From: Bacillus sp. 491mf
Lineage (GTDB): Bacteria; Bacillota; Bacilli; Bacillales; Bacillaceae_G
Direction: 5' to 3'
NCBI RefSeq assembly: GCF_900112415.1
Contig: NZ_FOLV01000004.1
Coordinates: 1 to 64,000, forward strand
DNA length: 64,000 bases
The translations under genes and the position numbers were made by a program. A model generated the notes under the pieces. That model worked only from the letters and a program-made list of their open reading frames with translations. It made no database searches and was not told the origin of the DNA. Below, piece after piece: positions 215-35,308 of this stretch (positions are counted from its first letter, which is position 1; each line of letters starts with the position of its first letter).

Positions 215-345
215 CCGAGACACCACCTAGAGTTAGTACAACCATTATACATAAAAAAAGTGAAAGCTTCCTCGATTTCATCGGGGAAGCTTTCACTTTT
301 TGAACTATGAGGACTTTTTCAGTGGCCTCATCATATAAGCTGAGA
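215..345 (-). mobile_element. IS1182-type terminal region with hairpin
   Basis: Upstream of the transposase start lies a strong inverted repeat (arms 255-271 and 285-301, GTGAAAGCTTCC core) followed by GGACTTTTTCAGTGGCCTC at 311-329, a sequence of the kind seen at IS1182-family ends. The hairpin could stop outside transcription from entering the transposase gene, a common arrangement in insertion sequences. The exact outer end is not fixed; it must lie before the bcr1 repeat at 352. Confidence 0.5.
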
Positions 346-351
346 CCTTTT

Positions 352-432
352 TTTATCCCGTAAAAGCGCAATTGATTCAATTAACCATCAGCAGGGGATA
401 AAGACTCCCCGCTGATAGAAGTTTCATTTTAT
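352..432 (+). repeat. bcr1 repeat, internally deleted copy
   Basis: TTTATCCCG at the left and TTTCATTTTAT at the right are the two bcr1 ends. Compared with the full copies at 12220 and 39185, about 70 bp are missing between two CCCG tetramers (TATCCCG and CTGCCCG), so TTTATCCCG joins directly to TAAAAGC. The right-hand TTTAT contains the stop codon of the hemolysin III gene (429-431). Confidence 0.8.
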
Positions 433-1085
433 GCTACAGGTAATACATAAAATAAAACGCAGAAAAACATCATTGTGCTTCCGCCTAATACAAAGAGATG
501 CCAAATTGCATGGTTAAATGGGAGCTTCTCCCATAGGAAGAAGATAGCACCGACAGAGTATAAAATCCCGCCAATTAATAATAATGAGAAGCCGCTACCA
601 GTTAAGTTTTCATATAGTGGTTTAATAGCAACGATAATGAGCCAGCCCATCAGAATGTAAAATAAAGTAGATAGTTTAATAAAACGACGTACAAAAAATA
701 TTTTAAAAATGATTCCTGCTATTGCAAGTGTCCAAATAATCGCAAGTAATGTCCAGCCAAGTGGCCCGCGTAGTGTAACGAGTAAAAACGGTGTATATGT
801 GCCGGCGATTAACAAATAGATGGCAGAGTGATCTAAAATAGTGAATAATTTTTCCACTTTTGGATGATGGATGCTATGTAATAGTGTTGAACATAAATAT
901 AGTAAAAACATGCTCACGCCATATACAGTAAATCCTACAATTGCTGATGCAGTTCCATGTTTTGATGCATGAATAATTAAAATAATTAATGCAGGGATAC
1001 TTAAAATGGCACCGATGCCATGTGTAATTGCATTAGCGATTTCTTCTTTAACAAATTGAGTCATTCGAGTTATTTTTTGAGTCAT
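429..1085 (-). CDS. hlyIII: Hemolysin III family membrane protein
   Basis: 218-residue polytopic protein with seven hydrophobic segments, of the HlyIII/YqfA branch of the PAQR superfamily. Conserved features are EEIANAITHGIGA near the N-terminus, STLLHS, LDHSAIYLLIAGTYTPF in the middle and HAIWHLFVLGGS near the C-terminus; the Ser, Asp and three His residues correspond to the metal site of PAQR proteins. B. cereus HlyIII is a described pore-forming hemolysin, though the native role of the family is unclear. The ATG at 1085 is preceded by AAAGGAG at 8 nt, so the longer start is used. It is transcribed away from tatA, and its stop codon lies inside the end of a bcr1 repeat. Confidence 0.93.
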   Translation of the reverse strand: MTQKITRMTQFVKEEIANAITHGIGAILSIPALIILIIHASKHGTASAIVGFTVYGVSMFLLYLCSTLLHSIHHPKVEKLFTILDHSAIYLLIAGTYTPFLLVTLRGPLGWTLLAIIWTLAIAGIIFKIFFVRRFIKLSTLFYILMGWLIIVAIKPLYENLTGSGFSLLLIGGILYSVGAIFFLWEKLPFNHAIWHLFVLGGSTMMFFCVLFYVLPVA

Positions 1086-3770: not shown

Positions 3771-4074
3771 ATAAAGTGAAACTTTAATCAGTGGGAGGGT
3801 TTTTTCATCCCTCACTAATTATTAGCCCTCACCAATTGGGCTTTGATGGGCAGTTTATCTCCCACTTAACTTCTTAAGAAAAGCGGAAGCGGCTCGTTCA
3901 GAATCGCAGGACGCCCACGCCCAAGGCGGAGAGGCGCTTTTTGCCTCGTCCGAGGGGGCGAAACGGCCGGAGATTCTAGCCGTTAGAGCTTGACAACAAA
4001 GAAATGTGGAACTGGACAATGCTTTTGCTGAATTTTGAGGTGGGAGTATTACTGCCCACGAATAGCGGGATAAA
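3771..4074 (-). repeat. bcr1 repeat interrupted by a nested element
   Basis: ATAAAGTGAAAC at the left and GCGGGATAAA at the right are bcr1 ends in inverted orientation. The copy is about 300 bp instead of 155 because roughly 145 bp are inserted after CTTCTT (see 3876-4020). Confidence 0.85.
3876..4020. repeat. Nested repeat element inside bcr1
   Basis: GC-rich segment beginning AAGAAAAGCGGAAGC and ending near GACAACAAAGAAATGTGG. It contains short inverted repeats (CCGGAGATTCTAG, GAATCGCAGG). A near-identical copy sits at the same position in the bcr1 at 30546, and a relative with similar ends is at 19422-19545. Confidence 0.7.
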
Positions 4075-9385: not shown

Positions 9386-11287
9386 ATGTGTGGTTTTGTA
9401 GGATGTTTATGTGAAAACCCTAGAGGGTTTTCGGCAGAAGAAAAACATCAATTTGAAAATATGAATACGATTATCTTTCACCGTGGTCCAGACGATGAAG
9501 GGTACTTCCGTGATGAACATGTACAATTTGGCTTCCGCCGTTTAAGCATTATTGACTTAGAGGCAGGACATCAGCCGTTAACGTATGAAAATGATCGTTA
9601 TGTAATTATTTTTAATGGTGAAATTTATAACTATGTAGAGCTTCGCGAAATGCTTCTTGAAAAAGGTGCAACATTCGCTACACAATCTGATACAGAAGTA
9701 ATCATTGCATTATATGCTCATATGAAAGAAAAATGTGTAGATTACCTTCGTGGTATGTTTGCATTTATGATTTGGGATCGCGAAGAGAAAAAACTATTCG
9801 GTGCACGTGATCATTTCGGTATTAAGCCACTTTATGTTGCGCAGCACGAGGATACAACATTCTTTGCATCTGAAAAGAAAAGTATATTACATGTGATGGA
9901 AGATAAAGGAGTAAATCCAACTTCCTTGCAACACTACTTTACGTATCAATATGCTCCTGAGCCTGAAACGTTAACAGTAGATATTAACAAAATTGAGCCA
10001 GGTCACTACTTTGTAAAAGAACTTGGTAAAGAAATGGAAATCCGTCGTTATTGGCAACCATATTTCAATGCATCTGATGCGACGAAAGAAGAGCATATTC
10101 AAGCAATTCGTGACGTATTATACGATTCTGTGAAAATGCATATGCGCAGTGATGTACCAGTAGGTTCATTCTTATCTGGTGGTATCGATTCGTCGATTAT
10201 CGCGTCTATCGCAAAAGAAATGAATCCAAACTTATTAACTTTCTCTGTAGGCTTTGAACGTCGTGGTTTTAGTGAGGTTGACGTAGCGAAAGAAACAGCG
10301 GAAAAACTAGGTGTAAAAAACTATAGCGTATTCGTAACACCACAAGAATTCATGGATGAATTTCCAAAAATCATGTGGCACATGGATGATCCATTAGCGG
10401 ATCCAGCAGCTGTACCATTGTACTTCGTTGCGAAAGAAGCACGTAAACATGTAACAGTTGTTCTTTCTGGTGAAGGTTCAGACGAGCTATTTGGCGGATA
10501 TAACATTTATCGTGAGCCAAATTCTTTGAAAATGTTCTCTTACATCCCTAGCCCAGGAAAACGCGTATTAAAAGCGTTAAGTGGTGCATTAAAAGAAGGG
10601 TTTAAAGGGAAAAGTTTCTTAGAGCGCGGATGTACATCGATTGAAGAGCGTTACTATGGAAATGCGAAAATCTTCCGTGAAGAAGAAAAAGCAGCACTTA
10701 TGAAGCACTACGATGAGAGTGTGAATTACATGGATATTACGAAGCCGTTGTATGATGATATCAAGAATTATGACGATGTAAGCAAAATGCAATACATTGA
10801 TATGTTCACATGGCTGCGCGGCGACATTTTATTAAAAGCTGATAAAATGACAATGGCACATTCATTAGAACTTCGTGTACCATTTTTAGATAAAGAAGTA
10901 TTTGATGTGGCATCTAAAATTCCAACAGAATTAAAGATTGCAAACGGCACAACAAAAGCTATTTTACGTGAAGCAGTACGTGGTATTGTACCAGATCACG
11001 TATTAGATCGTAAGAAGTTAGGCTTCCCAGTGCCAATCCGTCACTGGTTAAAAGATGAAATGCATGATTGGGCTGTAAATATTATTAAAGAAAGCAAAAC
11101 AGAGCATTTAATCGATAAGCAGTACGTATTAGACTTGTTAGAAGCACATTGTGCAGACAAAGGTGATTATAGCCGTAAAATTTGGACAGTACTTGCATTT
11201 ATGGTGTGGCATCAAATTTTTGTTGAACATAAATATGATACAAATGCATTTCATGAAGAAACAAAGCGCGCTTATAGCTTAGTTTAA
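9386..11287 (+). CDS. asnB: Asparagine synthetase (glutamine-hydrolysing)
   Basis: 633 residues, the full length of B. subtilis AsnB. The glutaminase domain begins MCGFVGC (Cys2 is the nucleophile after Met removal) with FHRGPDDEG, RLSIIDLEAGHQPL and FNGEIYNY; the synthetase domain has the PP-loop FLSGGIDSSI at about residue 262 and ALSGEGSDE-like VLSGEGSDELFGGY. It transfers ammonia from glutamine to aspartate using ATP. AAAGAGGGTAAGAA precedes the ATG. Monocistronic, closed by a very strong terminator. Confidence 0.96.
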   Translation: MCGFVGCLCENPRGFSAEEKHQFENMNTIIFHRGPDDEGYFRDEHVQFGFRRLSIIDLEAGHQPLTYENDRYVIIFNGEIYNYVELREMLLEKGATFATQSDTEVIIALYAHMKEKCVDYLRGMFAFMIWDREEKKLFGARDHFGIKPLYVAQHEDTTFFASEKKSILHVMEDKGVNPTSLQHYFTYQYAPEPETLTVDINKIEPGHYFVKELGKEMEIRRYWQPYFNASDATKEEHIQAIRDVLYDSVKMHMRSDVPVGSFLSGGIDSSIIASIAKEMNPNLLTFSVGFERRGFSEVDVAKETAEKLGVKNYSVFVTPQEFMDEFPKIMWHMDDPLADPAAVPLYFVAKEARKHVTVVLSGEGSDELFGGYNIYREPNSLKMFSYIPSPGKRVLKALSGALKEGFKGKSFLERGCTSIEERYYGNAKIFREEEKAALMKHYDESVNYMDITKPLYDDIKNYDDVSKMQYIDMFTWLRGDILLKADKMTMAHSLELRVPFLDKEVFDVASKIPTELKIANGTTKAILREAVRGIVPDHVLDRKKLGFPVPIRHWLKDEMHDWAVNIIKESKTEHLIDKQYVLDLLEAHCADKGDYSRKIWTVLAFMVWHQIFVEHKYDTNAFHEETKRAYSLV

Positions 11288-11292
11288 GGAGA

Positions 11293-11330
11293 AAACCTTA
11301 AGATAGCATTGCTATCTTAAGGTTTTTTTT
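11293..11330 (+). terminator. Terminator of asnB
   Basis: AAACCTTAAGATAGC / GCTATCTTAAGGTTT perfect 15-bp stem, 3-nt loop, T run. Confidence 0.93.
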
Positions 11331-11377
11331 CATAAATACTTGTCCTGTTTGATACAATAATAAGGAGTGGAATAAAT

Positions 11378-11737
11378 ATGTTAACGTTCGAAAAAGTAAC
11401 AGACGAAACAAAGCTGGTAGTAAAAGAAATGTTTTCTTCTCATGATTTACTAGTTCAAGATGTAGCATATTGTATAAAAGCAGATGATACATATATAGGT
11501 ATTGTTGACTATACTGTGAAACAAGAGAAAGCGATATTATCGTATCTTCTTATTCATCACGATTATGAGGGATACGGATATGGAACGAATGCTTATTATA
11601 CGTTTGAGGAGATTGTAAAAAGAGAGCATGTGAAAGAGATTCAAATCACATTTATAAATAAAAATGAAAGAATAGAATCATTTTTTGAACAACTTGGTTT
11701 TCAACAAAGTAATCATGTTTACATAAAGAAAGTGTAA
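11378..11737 (+). CDS. Small GNAT family acetyltransferase
   Basis: 119 residues with a minimal GNAT fold: the strand YIGIVDYTVKQEKAILSYLLIH, the acetyl-CoA loop GYGYGTNAYYTFEEIV (a Q/RxxGxG/A-like variant, here E-G-Y-G-Y-G), then IQITFINKNERIESFFEQLGFQ, the typical C-terminal Asn and LGF. Acceptor unknown. AAGGAGTGG ribosome binding site. It lies 16 nt before a second acetyltransferase gene, so both probably share a transcript. Confidence 0.85.
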   Translation: MLTFEKVTDETKLVVKEMFSSHDLLVQDVAYCIKADDTYIGIVDYTVKQEKAILSYLLIHHDYEGYGYGTNAYYTFEEIVKREHVKEIQITFINKNERIESFFEQLGFQQSNHVYIKKV

Positions 11738-30231: not shown

Positions 30232-30492
30232 ATGGAAGAAAAGGAAAAATTGATGCGGATTGTAGAGTTAGCTAAAGATATTCAGAAATTATTAGTGCAA
30301 GAAGCGTTCTTTAATCGACATCCCGAACTGCGCGGAGCGGTAGAAAATTTAGCTTGTTCTGTAGAAGTTTTAGCCAATATGCATGTACATGAAGATATGA
30401 ATGCAGAAGATACATTACGTTATGTTTTAGCGAAAATGAAGATTGCTCACAATGCAATTTCACAAGAAAAAGAAGGCTTACATTTGAACTGA
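30232..30492 (+). CDS. Small helical protein of unknown function (86 aa)
   Basis: Not recognised. The sequence is highly helical and acidic (MEEKEKLMRIVELAKDIQKL, AVENLACSVEVLANMHVHED) with no membrane segment. AGGAGGGG precedes the ATG by 6-7 nt and a terminator follows immediately, so it is a real monocistronic gene. Helical composition and size suggest a dimeric bundle. It lies upstream of the McrB-like pair but is separated from it by a terminator and a bcr1 repeat, so no functional link is implied. Confidence 0.8.
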   Translation: MEEKEKLMRIVELAKDIQKLLVQEAFFNRHPELRGAVENLACSVEVLANMHVHEDMNAEDTLRYVLAKMKIAHNAISQEKEGLHLN

Positions 30493-30512
30493 CAATTAGT
30501 GTCAGTTTTTTT
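30488..30512 (+). terminator. Terminator
   Basis: ACTGACA / TGTCAGT stem, ATTAG loop, eight T; the stop codon lies in the stem. Confidence 0.85.
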
Positions 30513-30545
30513 TATTTCTAGTTTGCTCTTATTATTCATACAATG

Positions 30546-30798
30546 ATAAAGTGAAACTTTAATCAGTGGGGGGTTACGGGTAGTTTATCTCCTACCTAAC
30601 TTCTTAAGAAAAGCGGAAGCAGCTTGCTCAGAATCGCAGGACGCCCACGCATAAGGCAGAGTGGTGCTTTTTGCCTCGTCCGAGGGGGCGAAATGACCGG
30701 AGATTCTAAGCCGCTAGAGCTGGACAACAAAGAAATGTGGAAGTGGCTCGTCCAGAATGTGAGGTGGGAGCATTACTGCCCGCGACTAACGGGATAAA
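30546..30798 (-). repeat. bcr1 repeat with nested element
   Basis: Inverted bcr1 ends ATAAAGTGAAAC and ACGGGATAAA. The left half is shortened (the second hairpin arm is missing after GTGGGGGG) and a nested element of about 140 bp (30606-30745) sits after CTTCTT, exactly as in the copy at 3771. Confidence 0.85.
30606..30745. repeat. Nested element inside bcr1, second copy
   Basis: AAGAAAAGCGGAAGCAGCTT to GACAACAAAGAAATGTGG, about 90 percent identical by eye to 3876-4020. Confidence 0.7.
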
Positions 30799-30824
30799 AG
30801 CATTGAAAAAAGAAGGTGAGCGAG

Positions 30825-32639
30825 ATGAAACTTGAGAAAGCTCTTCACCCAAGCTTTGTAAAGAGATTACAGCATATGCGTTTTATTGGGAAATTTGTAG
30901 AAGAGAAAAAGAAGAAGAAAGGGTCATTTTTTGTCGTTTGTCTTTCGCCAATCCCAAACATAATTGAAGCGGCTTTTGGAGAAGATTCACATATATTTGA
31001 GGGTTTATATAAAAGTAAACAAAATGAAAAATTCTTTGCCAGTATAAAAGAAGGAAGACGAGAAAAACAATTGTTGCTATTCCAACTTTCTTATATGGAG
31101 AACATTTTATATGCAGAATTAATAGCTGCTGAAGAAAGAGAAATTGCAAGCTCCTATAAAATGATTCCTTCTCCTAAACTATCAGTCCCAAAAGCGAGAG
31201 AAGTATTTGAAAGAAAACTTGGGAAAGGATATGTTTCATTTCTAGTGCCCAAATTCCCGCATGATTTTGGTACGCCAGAGTTGCTATGGCATGAAGGGCG
31301 GATATATGGAAATGTATCTTTAAAACCTTCTATTAGTACCATTACATATCGAGAACTGAGGCGTGATGTTCGTTACCTCGATATGGATGATTGGATGCAG
31401 TATGTCGATATGAATGTAGAGAATAGTTTGTTTTTTGTTCGAGCAGAAGTATATGAACAATTAGAAAAACAAATAAAAGAGAATGGAAAACAAATTGAAA
31501 TCAGCGATACACGTAAACAAGAAAAGAGAAATGAATGGAATGAACGTGAGTATTCTTTTATACAATACGTAAAGAAAATTATCACAGAAAAAGAATTATA
31601 TATTGATGAAATCGATATTTACAATTTTCATATTTGTGTAAAGACAAATTTATTAACAATAGTAGGTGGTATGCCTGGAATCGGAAAATCACAGTTTGTG
31701 CAAGCCTATGCAGAAGCGCTCGGATTAACGTTTGGGAAAGATTTCATTTGGATTCCTGTGTCACCATCGTATCAAGAACCGCATGACGTATTAGGTTATC
31801 TTCATTCAAATGGAACGTATATGGAAAGTGAAACTAAACTTGTTCGAACACTGTTAGATGCCGCTAAAAATCCAAATCAATTATATATGATTGTATTTGA
31901 TGAAATGAACTTGTCATATATTGAACATTGGTTTACTCCTTTTCTATCACTCTTGCAGCTAAATCGGAAAAATCGTATTTTAACTTTATATGCAGCTAGT
32001 AATGAAAAAGAACAGGATGTACCACCGCAAATAGAAATTGGTGATAATGTCATATTTATTGGTACAGTTAATTTTGATGAAACAACAAAGGAGCTATCTG
32101 ACCGTTTATTAGACCGTGTAAATGTCGTATTCCTTCAAAAAATCCCATTTTGTGAGATGAGTATAGTGGAGAGAAAGATGATAAATATTCCGTGTGCATT
32201 ATCTGTTTCAGCATTAGAATTTCGAATGAATTGGGTTCACCACAAGGTAATGCTTGACGTGTTTACAGATGAAGAGTTGGAGTTATTAGATAAAGTGCAT
32301 CAACTGTTATTTCTTCACGATGCTTCAAAAGGAATTTCTTTTCGCGTTGCATCGGCAATTGCATCTTATTTACAAAATATTCCGTATGATGAAGGAGAAT
32401 CTTTGTTAATAAGTCGTGAAGAAGCATTTGATTTACAAATAAAACAACGTATTTTAACGAAGTTACGTGGCACAGAAGCGACAATAGGGGCATTGCTTCG
32501 TGAAGAGGGGAAAAAAGAGATGTCTCTTGTACAATTATTACAGTCATCACTTGCAAATCGTGTTTCAACCTTTGAACACTCACTGCTGTATATGAAACAA
32601 AAACAGCGAGAGTTGGAGCTGTACGGATATGTTAAATGA
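30825..32639 (+). CDS. McrB-like AAA+ NTPase
   Basis: 604 residues from ATG 30825 (AAGGTG 6 nt upstream; a GTG three codons earlier is less likely). The N-terminal 250 residues are of unknown fold and probably recognise the target; a charged linker (TRKQEKRNEWNE) follows. The AAA+ core has Walker A GGMPGIGKSQ (about residue 280), Walker B MIVFDEMN (358), and GTVNFDETT...LSDRLLDRVN (412-431), the McrB-type sensor and arginine-finger pattern in which the N-x-x-D element of McrB GTPases appears as VNFD. It overlaps the nuclease-like partner by 11 nt. Together they resemble a type IV, McrBC-like restriction module; GTP versus ATP use is not decidable. Confidence 0.82.
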   Translation: MKLEKALHPSFVKRLQHMRFIGKFVEEKKKKKGSFFVVCLSPIPNIIEAAFGEDSHIFEGLYKSKQNEKFFASIKEGRREKQLLLFQLSYMENILYAELIAAEEREIASSYKMIPSPKLSVPKAREVFERKLGKGYVSFLVPKFPHDFGTPELLWHEGRIYGNVSLKPSISTITYRELRRDVRYLDMDDWMQYVDMNVENSLFFVRAEVYEQLEKQIKENGKQIEISDTRKQEKRNEWNEREYSFIQYVKKIITEKELYIDEIDIYNFHICVKTNLLTIVGGMPGIGKSQFVQAYAEALGLTFGKDFIWIPVSPSYQEPHDVLGYLHSNGTYMESETKLVRTLLDAAKNPNQLYMIVFDEMNLSYIEHWFTPFLSLLQLNRKNRILTLYAASNEKEQDVPPQIEIGDNVIFIGTVNFDETTKELSDRLLDRVNVVFLQKIPFCEMSIVERKMINIPCALSVSALEFRMNWVHHKVMLDVFTDEELELLDKVHQLLFLHDASKGISFRVASAIASYLQNIPYDEGESLLISREEAFDLQIKQRILTKLRGTEATIGALLREEGKKEMSLVQLLQSSLANRVSTFEHSLLYMKQKQRELELYGYVK

Positions 32640-34479
32640 AAGTCCGTATGAGACAGAGATTATAGAGACAGGGGAGAGGCTTCCTTTCGTATTGAAAGTG
32701 ATAGTAGGAGCAGGAGAGAAGGGGGAACATATTGTTTTAAATAAACTTTGTGTTTCACCAGTTACAATTTCTTCATGTGTGTACAAAGTACAAGAATTAA
32801 AACCGCTTCGGTTACATATACAATCACAATATCCTATTAAAGTTACGTTTATTTGGAATAAAGTATATGAAGGCCAAAAGCACCATATGGAATGGAAATA
32901 TGAACTGCATGAAAAACAGCGTACCGTTTTACTGTATGAGCACGGAAAAACGGATTATACATATCCATGGCGCTGCGGTATATATCACTTTGAAGTGCAG
33001 ATTGGAGAAGAGCTGTTTTACGGAGCATTTCAAATCGTTCCGAAAAATTTTTTTGACGATCAACTAGAGTTAATTCAGCAATATGTAAAGTCTATACTAG
33101 GTGGAGTCATTTTAGATCGGGGATATTATAAAAAGACATTTGTTACGTTTGCAGAGATTGAAGATTATTCATATATGCGTATGCTACGTGTGTTGCCGCA
33201 AAAAATGAAAAAAGTAAAGCAGTTATATTATGAAGTGCAGCATAAGAAATTTTTTGAACAAGAATATATATGGGAAATAAAAGAGAGAAAGCCCACAAGA
33301 AAGAGCATCATTTCACATGAGAAAAAGCCGTATGCAAAAAGATTTAATCGCCGATTTACAGAGCAAAAGCACTGTAATGAAAATGGCTATGTAAAATATA
33401 AAACGAAGTTGTTTTATAATAAGCTATTAGAAATTGATTTGTTTTTACGTGAAACGATTCAGAAATTAGAGAGGGCACAGCAAACGCGAAGAGAAGAGAA
33501 AAAAGCAGTGCATACCATTATGCAAATGATTGAGCGAAATGGCTCTGTAACTGAGCGAGACAAACAAAAATATAGTAATATTCATTTGTTAAAAGACACT
33601 GATTTGCGCAAAATTGCGATGAAAATTCAAGAATATAAAGTGCTATATTCCATTTTGCAAAGTATACTTACGTATTTTTCACATCTTTTATACACACCAT
33701 TTTGGAGAGGTGTTCGGGAAGAAGCTACGCTTACAACACATACACTCCCCCCTGTTTATCATCAGTTATTACGTCAGCTTGAATTTTTACCGCAGCACAA
33801 TGAAATAGAACCATCATTTTTATTTGTTTATAAGCCGACATTTTTAATTTATGAGTACTATGCATATTTTACTGTTGTGGCAATTTTACAGGAGATTGGC
33901 TTTAACGATGTTCCGTCAATTGCAGAACAAATTCAATCGTATTTCTATTTAGACGGTTTACAAGATGGTACAATAATCGTGTTAGAAAACGAAGAGTTGC
34001 AGCTGCATGTGGCATTCAATGATTTAATTGAAACCCATCCACTTATTGCACTTAGTAAACAGAGCCATTTTTATAATGGAGAAGATACAAAAAAACCGGA
34101 TATTCGTATCGATTGTTATAAGCGAGGGGAAACTGCTTATGAATATCAATCATCAATTATTATTGAAGTAAAATATAGTCCGATGTATAACATTTTTCAG
34201 CCAGTTGGAAATACGAAAGCAACCGAGCAGATGTACAAATATTGGTCAATTAAATACGTAGAAGAGCAGGATGGAAAACGATTATTTCACCGCCGTGCAA
34301 TTTATGAAGTTATATGTGTATATCCAGGCAGTCATTTGCATGCCAAAAAAATTGAAGCAGGTTGCGGTGTATTTTTACAATTGTATCCGTATAAAACAAA
34401 AAAAGGAGAAGAGAGGCTAGCGGGGAAGAAAGAATTAGTGAACATTTTTCAGAGATGGCTGGCGGGGATAAGGGAATAA
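32629..34479 (+). CDS. DUF2357-like protein with PD-(D/E)xK nuclease domain (McrC-like partner)
   Basis: 616 residues. The N-terminal half has a beta-rich DUF2357-type region (VTFIWNKVYEGQKHHMEWKY, YPWRCGIYHFEVQIGEELFY), then a basic, helical middle with ETIQKLERAQQTRREEKKAV that may form a coiled coil. The C-terminal domain carries KKPDIRIDCYKRGE (about 489) and SSIIIEVKYSP (about 510), the PD...ExK motif of restriction-type nucleases, followed by KATEQMYKYWSIKYVEE. It starts inside the McrB-like gene, so production is coupled. The ATPase likely loads or moves this nuclease on foreign nucleic acid. Target (modified DNA or RNA) is unknown. Confidence 0.8.
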   Translation: MLNESPYETEIIETGERLPFVLKVIVGAGEKGEHIVLNKLCVSPVTISSCVYKVQELKPLRLHIQSQYPIKVTFIWNKVYEGQKHHMEWKYELHEKQRTVLLYEHGKTDYTYPWRCGIYHFEVQIGEELFYGAFQIVPKNFFDDQLELIQQYVKSILGGVILDRGYYKKTFVTFAEIEDYSYMRMLRVLPQKMKKVKQLYYEVQHKKFFEQEYIWEIKERKPTRKSIISHEKKPYAKRFNRRFTEQKHCNENGYVKYKTKLFYNKLLEIDLFLRETIQKLERAQQTRREEKKAVHTIMQMIERNGSVTERDKQKYSNIHLLKDTDLRKIAMKIQEYKVLYSILQSILTYFSHLLYTPFWRGVREEATLTTHTLPPVYHQLLRQLEFLPQHNEIEPSFLFVYKPTFLIYEYYAYFTVVAILQEIGFNDVPSIAEQIQSYFYLDGLQDGTIIVLENEELQLHVAFNDLIETHPLIALSKQSHFYNGEDTKKPDIRIDCYKRGETAYEYQSSIIIEVKYSPMYNIFQPVGNTKATEQMYKYWSIKYVEEQDGKRLFHRRAIYEVICVYPGSHLHAKKIEAGCGVFLQLYPYKTKKGEERLAGKKELVNIFQRWLAGIRE

Positions 34480-34665: not shown

Positions 34666-34679
34666 TGAAAGCGCTAACA
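34666..34679 (+). promoter_or_regulatory. cre site for CcpA
   Basis: TGAAAGCGCTAACA fits the consensus TGWNANCGNTNWCA at every position. It begins about 6 nt past the -10 element of the promoter at 34631, a position at which CcpA usually represses. Confidence 0.75.
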
Positions 34680-34711: not shown

Positions 34712-35308
34712 ATGTTCCAACGTGTTCAAACAAAGGAAGAACATTTTTGGTTCGAACAATTATGGGGAGATTTTTGTGAAGAACGAAACTTAATGTTTGT
34801 AGAACGAAATTTAACACCTTCAAGATTTTTATTGATAGAGGACAATCATTATATCGGAACCATTGAATGCATAAATTATACAACACCTGAACAATCGAAT
34901 TCCGAGTTTTTTTATCCGTTTTCTGAAAATGAATATATAAAAGGGTTAAAAAACTTGTACGAAGTTGGAAAGTTAAGTATTGCAAAAACATCTCGCGGTC
35001 GTGGGCAATTTAAACAACTTGCGACGATTTTATTTATACATGCATTAGAAGTTAAAGCAGAGTGGTATATTGCGGTTGTAACAAAGCGTATGTATATGTA
35101 CTTACGTTCATTAGGGTTTCCAATAGAACCAATTGATGATGCATTTCCTGTTAATGATGAGATACAAGGTGTACCAGTTTGTATTCATGTTTTGAAAGGA
35201 TTAACACATATGTACTCCTTGAAAGAATTTCGTGACGTGATTCAAGGAAATGAACATGCACAAGCACTAATTAAAGAAAACAGTAAAAAAATTATGTTAA
35301 CAAGGTAA
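34712..35308 (+). CDS. GNAT-type N-acyltransferase
   Basis: 198 residues of the GNAT/N-acyl amino acid synthase-like type. RFLLIEDNHYIGTIECINY and YEVGKLSIAKTSRGRGQFKQ supply the central strands and the acyl-CoA or acyl-carrier loop, followed by LATILFIHALEVKAEWYIAV and RMYMYLRSLGFPIEPID. Similar proteins acylate amino acids or act in lipid signalling; the substrate is not determined. GGCGGGG ribosome binding site. A cre box overlapping its transcription start suggests repression during growth on preferred sugars. hcp follows after about 100 bp with its own Fnr-type promoter. Confidence 0.78.
   Translation: MFQRVQTKEEHFWFEQLWGDFCEERNLMFVERNLTPSRFLLIEDNHYIGTIECINYTTPEQSNSEFFYPFSENEYIKGLKNLYEVGKLSIAKTSRGRGQFKQLATILFIHALEVKAEWYIAVVTKRMYMYLRSLGFPIEPIDDAFPVNDEIQGVPVCIHVLKGLTHMYSLKEFRDVIQGNEHAQALIKENSKKIMLTR

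Follow-up and report, generated by a model that had tools for sequence, protein, structure and literature searches.

The window analysed here is a 64,000-nt stretch of Bacillus sp. 491mf (RefSeq assembly GCF_900112415.1, contig NZ_FOLV01000004.1, positions 1 to 64,000), and it contains two neighbouring genes that encode an McrB-like AAA+ motor, CnuB, and an McrC-like PD-(D/E)xK partner, CnuC (Table 1). A sequence-only reading of this DNA had described an overlapping motor and nuclease pair of the McrBC type, from a branch suggested to act on RNA; both open reading frames (ORFs) are confirmed, with an 11-nt overlap, and the proposed identity is supported. Neighbouring CnuB and CnuC ORFs recur in 19 further genomes, so the pair is not a product of chance. 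These 19 genomes of the nearest family, together with the window, make up the 20 family loci referred to below. On balance the pair is probably a Pseudo-Type I-B CoCoNuT, that is, a two-protein system devoid of CnuA, which now appears to be vertically inherited as a core stress or immunity locus.

Table 1. Positions in the window of the gene pair, its protein domains and the adjoining features
Feature	Coordinates	Strand	Remarks
CnuB, McrB-like AAA+ motor	30825..32639	+	604 aa; ATG 30825, stop 32639
CnuB domains	residues 1 to ~240; ~255-435		shared Type I-B head; AAA+ with NxD motif; C-terminus helical
CnuC, McrC-like PD-(D/E)xK partner	32629..34479	+	616 aa; ATG 32629, stop 34479
CnuC domains	residues 9-137; ~250-354; ~402-540		beta-rich; long helices; PD-(D/E)xK block
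FeeM-like N-acyl amino acid synthase / GNAT-type protein (weak label)	34712..35308	+	198 aa; conserved third neighbour
cre-like palindrome TGAAAGCGCTAACA	34666..34679	+	leader of FeeM-like gene
Small gene	30232..30492	+	86 aa; no Pfam match
Terminator-like hairpin	30486..30508	+	end of small gene
Composite bcr1-like repeat	30544-30799	+	between small gene and pair

The Walker A (GGMPGIGKSQ) and Walker B (FDEMN) motifs and the GTVNFDETT and DRLLDRVN segments noted earlier are all present in CnuB. Alignments place its sensor motif at the NFD of GTVNFDET; this NxD motif has one residue fewer than its counterpart in E. coli McrB, NTAD (NxxD). This motif reads NFDE in 19 family loci and NIDE in one, and Walker A GKS, Walker B and NxD are retained in all 20. 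Pfam finds only generic AAA families in CnuB. The ~250 residues preceding Walker A had been taken for a new recognition domain, a view that does not hold: this head aligns along its length with the heads of Type I-B CnuB proteins, with an HHalign probability of 100% over 282 columns for the nearer Type I-B clade and 98.5% over 271 columns for a second one. These profile comparisons indicate that the CnuB head is an inherited Type I-B head, common to Type I-B motors. In the available text of Bell et al. (2024, eLife, PMC11090510), Type I-B CnuB heads are assigned a CSD-like OB fold, often with a YTH-like domain too. The head gave no convincing match to Pfam or PDB profiles and none to CSD or YTH, and neither fold is among the structural matches listed for the CnuB model, which AAA+ structures fill.

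CnuC carries the nuclease motif E...PD...E-V-K...QMYKY, and its elements E, PD, E-V/I-K and Q[M/L]YKY are retained in all 20 family loci; the C-terminal PD...EVK motif seen previously is part of this fuller one. The helical middle proposed for the second protein is also found, as long helices. The supposed DUF2357-type region at the N-terminus is indeed beta-rich; in the predicted model it looks less like DUF2357 itself than like an Ig/RhoGDI-type sandwich, the resemblance being weak (mean predicted local distance difference test score, pLDDT, 57). An Ig-like N-terminal CnuC sandwich resembling RhoGDI is described for Type I-B and I-C in the same paper (PMC11090510, available text). Pfam DUF2357 does not reach the CnuC of the window but does match that of several Type I-B relatives, and PDDEXK_7 matches one of ten family CnuC members. 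Nothing convincing was found for the window CnuC in Pfam, nothing relevant for the pair in NCBIfam, and no significant match in a PDB profile search with the CnuC alignment. As a separate observation, a 336-nt gap (11114-11449) separates CnuB from CnuC in family locus L039; in the remaining 19 family loci the two genes overlap.

All 19 family genomes carry both CnuB and CnuC, at one site with conserved flanks and with no presence/absence turnover. The expectation of a variable locus is contradicted by this distribution within the family, and the caveat attached to it, that the genes might be a fixed chromosomal pair, is borne out. In the 18 family loci whose sequence extends far enough downstream, the helix-turn-helix (HTH), YueI-like, histidine-kinase and CNNM genes of the window recur in 17, 17, 16 and 15, respectively; the HTH gene matches Pfam only under the cut-off. 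A scan of genome contigs returned four loci, three from Ectobacillus and one from Bacillus sp. 165, with CnuC identities of 53-58%, and the first of them marks the family whose 19 genomes were compared; in any genome compared the closest CnuC match is 59% identical, the comparison lying outside the window's own species group, the B. cereus group. Sampled evenly, 299 genomes of the order included 27 positives, of which 11 belonged to the family and 16 to the other 288. Of 398 genomes drawn from the class, nine were positive: one came from the family, two were also in the order sample and six were additional. No CnuC relative was found in viral contigs, and phages yielded two weak matches, to the motor only. 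Plasmids gave no close DNA match to the pair, and their protein relatives are all below 60% identity (265 records for the motor and six for CnuC).

The 20 family CnuB rows form one clade (support 98/95), with a Type I-B clade adjoining it and a second Type I-B clade further out; the tree is midpoint-rooted and is our own, not the published motor tree. A CnuC tree likewise unites its 11 family rows in a single clade (96/99). The topology of the CnuB tree is consistent with a loss of CnuA. A CnuA-type gene lies just upstream of CnuB in all 16 non-family loci of the order and in three of six further class loci (19 of 22 together). The CnuA profile was built from 14 of those 16 loci, and the independent cases are L082, where the match is split over two ORFs, L086, L121, L124 and L125. 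Two examined plasmid loci share the CnuA-CnuB-CnuC layout. In the family, a CnuA match at E 0.001 or better occurs in one of 19 genomes (G019), beside a second CnuB-CnuC pair, and the other 18 have none. No CnuA remnant was detected in six-frame pieces of the 20 family loci.

The non-family loci without CnuA upstream are L122, L123 and L126. L122 (3355-6664) and L123 (5027-8381), distant relatives from two genomes of one small family, hold a CnuA-less pair in which the CnuC nuclease motifs are intact and CnuB is degenerate, one copy keeping Walker A without the usual Walker B and NxD and the other having none of the three; the upstream ORFs, judged from their sequence starts, resemble an ABC transporter. 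Two Type I-B systems are decaying. In L094 (8364-18000) CnuC lies in two distant pieces on opposite strands, between which are ORFs that look transposase-like to the eye, and in L091 (5241-7290) CnuB is divided over two ORFs. At L085, L086 and L088 a Type I-B system occupies one common site in three genomes, so Type I-B systems can apparently be vertically inherited too.

Purifying selection on the pair was examined in an eleven-locus subclade, using a simple count of nonsynonymous to synonymous rates (dN/dS) on the 36 of 55 pairs usable for all ten genes. The median dN/dS is 0.034 for CnuB and 0.039 for CnuC, while the medians of the other eight genes range from 0.055 to 0.113, and one or other of the two has the lowest value in 26 of the 36 pairs. 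Because the pairs share ancestry and the count method is simple, this order is a ranking and not a test. Judged from sequence comparison, the pair looks permanently built into the chromosome and strongly conserved there, and not like a swappable defence module.

The FeeM-like gene is found in 16 of 19 family genomes and always adjoins the pair; G004 and G005 are without it, and the contig of G014 stops next to CnuC, with no FeeM-like match elsewhere in that genome. It is present at none of the 22 non-family loci, within the fetched stretches. The FeeM label is a weak one: the window protein matches Pfam FeeM at E 0.0004, under the cut-off, and has no significant match in the PDB, while all eight aligned members match Pfam FeeM at 0.01 or better and six of the eight also match a GNAT family. 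In the order draw a FeeM-like match occurs in 39 of 299 genomes. Nine of these matches are close orthologues from the family (E <1e-86). The remaining 30 are more remote, at E 1.8e-29 or weaker, and two of the genomes that hold them, G054 and G096, have a Type I-B system at another place. The cre-like palindrome is found in 16 of 17 FeeM-like leaders (the exception is L001) and in three of 300 leaders of other ORFs at the same loci, counts that are descriptive, the pattern having been widened after the leaders were inspected. The strict cre consensus TGWAANCGNTWNCA, tried first, fits two of the 17 leaders (the window and L003), and a second pattern, WTGNAANCGNWNNCW, fits L003 and eight subclade loci. 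The window also holds transporter-type neighbours, namely CNNM, OpuAC/BPD_transp_1 and amino-acid permease genes.

In six of 20 family loci the small gene is the direct upstream neighbour of the pair; in L036 it sits ~5 kb upstream. It was considered as a CnuA remnant and rejected, having no similarity to CnuA. The window contains three terminator-like sites against a mean of 2.3 in shuffles, which is no evidence by itself. The bcr1-like repeat in front of the pair recurs in the window as a second long copy at 3848-4074 and as partial ones at other places, and the stretch 30560-30800 gives an RNA fold z-score of -2.05. The repeat was not found in the other family loci (L001-L096 searched), a single 28-bp fragment being found in a locus outside the family, and it has no match in plasmids. 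A composite bcr1 before the pair had been read as consistent with a variable locus; the repeat is there, but its absence from the relatives makes it look like a later insertion into the leader and not the mark of a mobile pair. Since the hairpin marks the end of the small gene and the repeat takes up most of the space before CnuB, a promoter of the pair's own, if there is one, is probably in or just before the repeat.

We infer the ring, ligand, substrate and trigger of the complex; the ring, stalk and cutting nuclease are drawn by analogy from McrBC biochemistry as summarised in the available text of PMC11090510. CnuB subunits would form a hexameric AAA+ ring that hydrolyses nucleoside triphosphate, with the head binding a nucleic-acid ligand, RNA being predicted for this group. 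The CnuC stalk would sit in the CnuB ring and stimulate it, and the PD-(D/E)xK domain would cut the engaged nucleic acid. Given that the locus is fixed and tightly constrained, a conserved target, internal or related to stress, is the likelier trigger, and a variable mark on phage the less likely one. The best reading is of a putative motor complex that would cleave nucleic acid and is retained as a core module for stress or immunity.

Core immunity is a serious rival to a constant internal trigger, and a possible one: the complex would cut invading phage or plasmid nucleic acid and be fixed by a constant threat. The kin Type I-B systems are patchy (16 of the 288 non-family genomes of the order) and also occur on plasmids (the two examined), and PADLOC PDC-M26A, a related motor domain listed as a phage-defence candidate, matches CnuB partially (E 4e-34), as it does two Type I-B motors. 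The lack of turnover in the 19 genomes, median dN/dS values that in one subclade are the lowest of the genes compared and the metabolic and regulatory type of the flanking genes speak against this rival while being compatible with a core immune role. The PADLOC match is one of several points that weigh against the reading we prefer. The low dN/dS is itself compatible with a core immune role, and comes from one subclade, a simple count and pairs that are kin. Moreover, the Type I-B pair L085/L086, at a shared site, also has low values (CnuB 0.064, CnuC 0.065, CnuA 0.099), which fall within the range of its neighbours. With two very divergent CnuB rows included, only 28% of bootstrap trees recover a single origin for the family rows. 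An HHalign profile comparison of CnuC with E. coli McrC gave no detectable match, the CnuC AlphaFold model is weak, and so is that of CnuB (mean pLDDT 66), which leaves the fold of the head not settled.

The remaining explanations carry less weight. We put forward only tentatively, as rather unlikely, that in one family's ancestor an McrBC-type restriction machine became domesticated as a housekeeping factor for nucleic-acid processing or self-restraint, tied to an N-acyl-amino-acid signal whose gene has a catabolite-control-like operator. It is very unlikely that the pair borrows CnuA from another Type I-B system in its genome, as raised in PMC11090510 (available text); G019 does have such a system, but 18 of the 19 family genomes lack a CnuA match. 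A regulatory AAA+ complex that has lost its cutting activity would suit the fixed, housekeeping-like inheritance and is highly improbable given the retention of E, PD, E-V/I-K and QxxKY in every family locus. That the pair is a variable defence module, acquired recently and equipped with a new recognition domain, as the sequence-only reading inferred, is scarcely credible. The adjoining repeat and the general habit of McrBC systems speak for it; against it, the site is constant within the family, the head is common to Type I-B CnuB, and the repeat was not found at the relatives' loci.

Type IV restriction systems are accessory as a rule. Here a pair with all catalytic residues sits at one site in every family genome compared, under tighter constraint than its neighbours in the subclade tested, and is a good candidate for asking what role an McrBC machine has beyond that of a swappable immune gene. 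With a trans-acting CnuA absent from 18 of 19 genomes, it would also offer a natural CnuA-free CoCoNuT for biochemistry.

Compared with E. coli McrBC (Type IV restriction), the pair shares the AAA+ McrB-type domain (HHalign E 8.4e-7, probability 91.5%) and a nuclease partner in the operon, and differs from it in that E. coli McrBC has an NxxD motif and a 348-aa McrC with no profile similarity detectable in CnuC. Systems with an inactivated CnuB (Druantia I/II, which the preprint PMC12458937 names Type IV CoCoNuT) belong to the same wider family, whereas the motor motifs of the window pair are intact. Type I-B CoCoNuTs (CnuA-CnuB-CnuC) have the same CnuB head, AAA+ domain with NxD and CnuC architecture, but carry CnuA just upstream (19 of the 22 non-family loci), are patchily spread and have no FeeM-like gene in the stretches fetched. 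The closest likeness is to the Pseudo-Type I-B CoCoNuT named by Bell et al. (PMC11090510, available text): an NxD motor, CnuB and CnuC only, Type I-B kinship without CnuA, a Bacillus-type host and a neighbour resembling a quorum-sensing hormone synthase, here the weakly matching FeeM-like gene. The paper places a quorum-sensing hormone synthase, transporters and a mechanosensitive ion channel in the Pseudo-Type I-B neighbourhood and hypothesises a role in overcrowding stress; we found no experimental test of such a system in the literature, judged mostly from listings. That text speaks of islands and of CnuA perhaps being used from elsewhere in the genome, whereas here the site is fixed in all 19 family genomes and a CnuA match is lacking in 18. 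The system type already has a name; the present analysis adds that the site is fixed, that CnuA is missing and how strong the constraint is.
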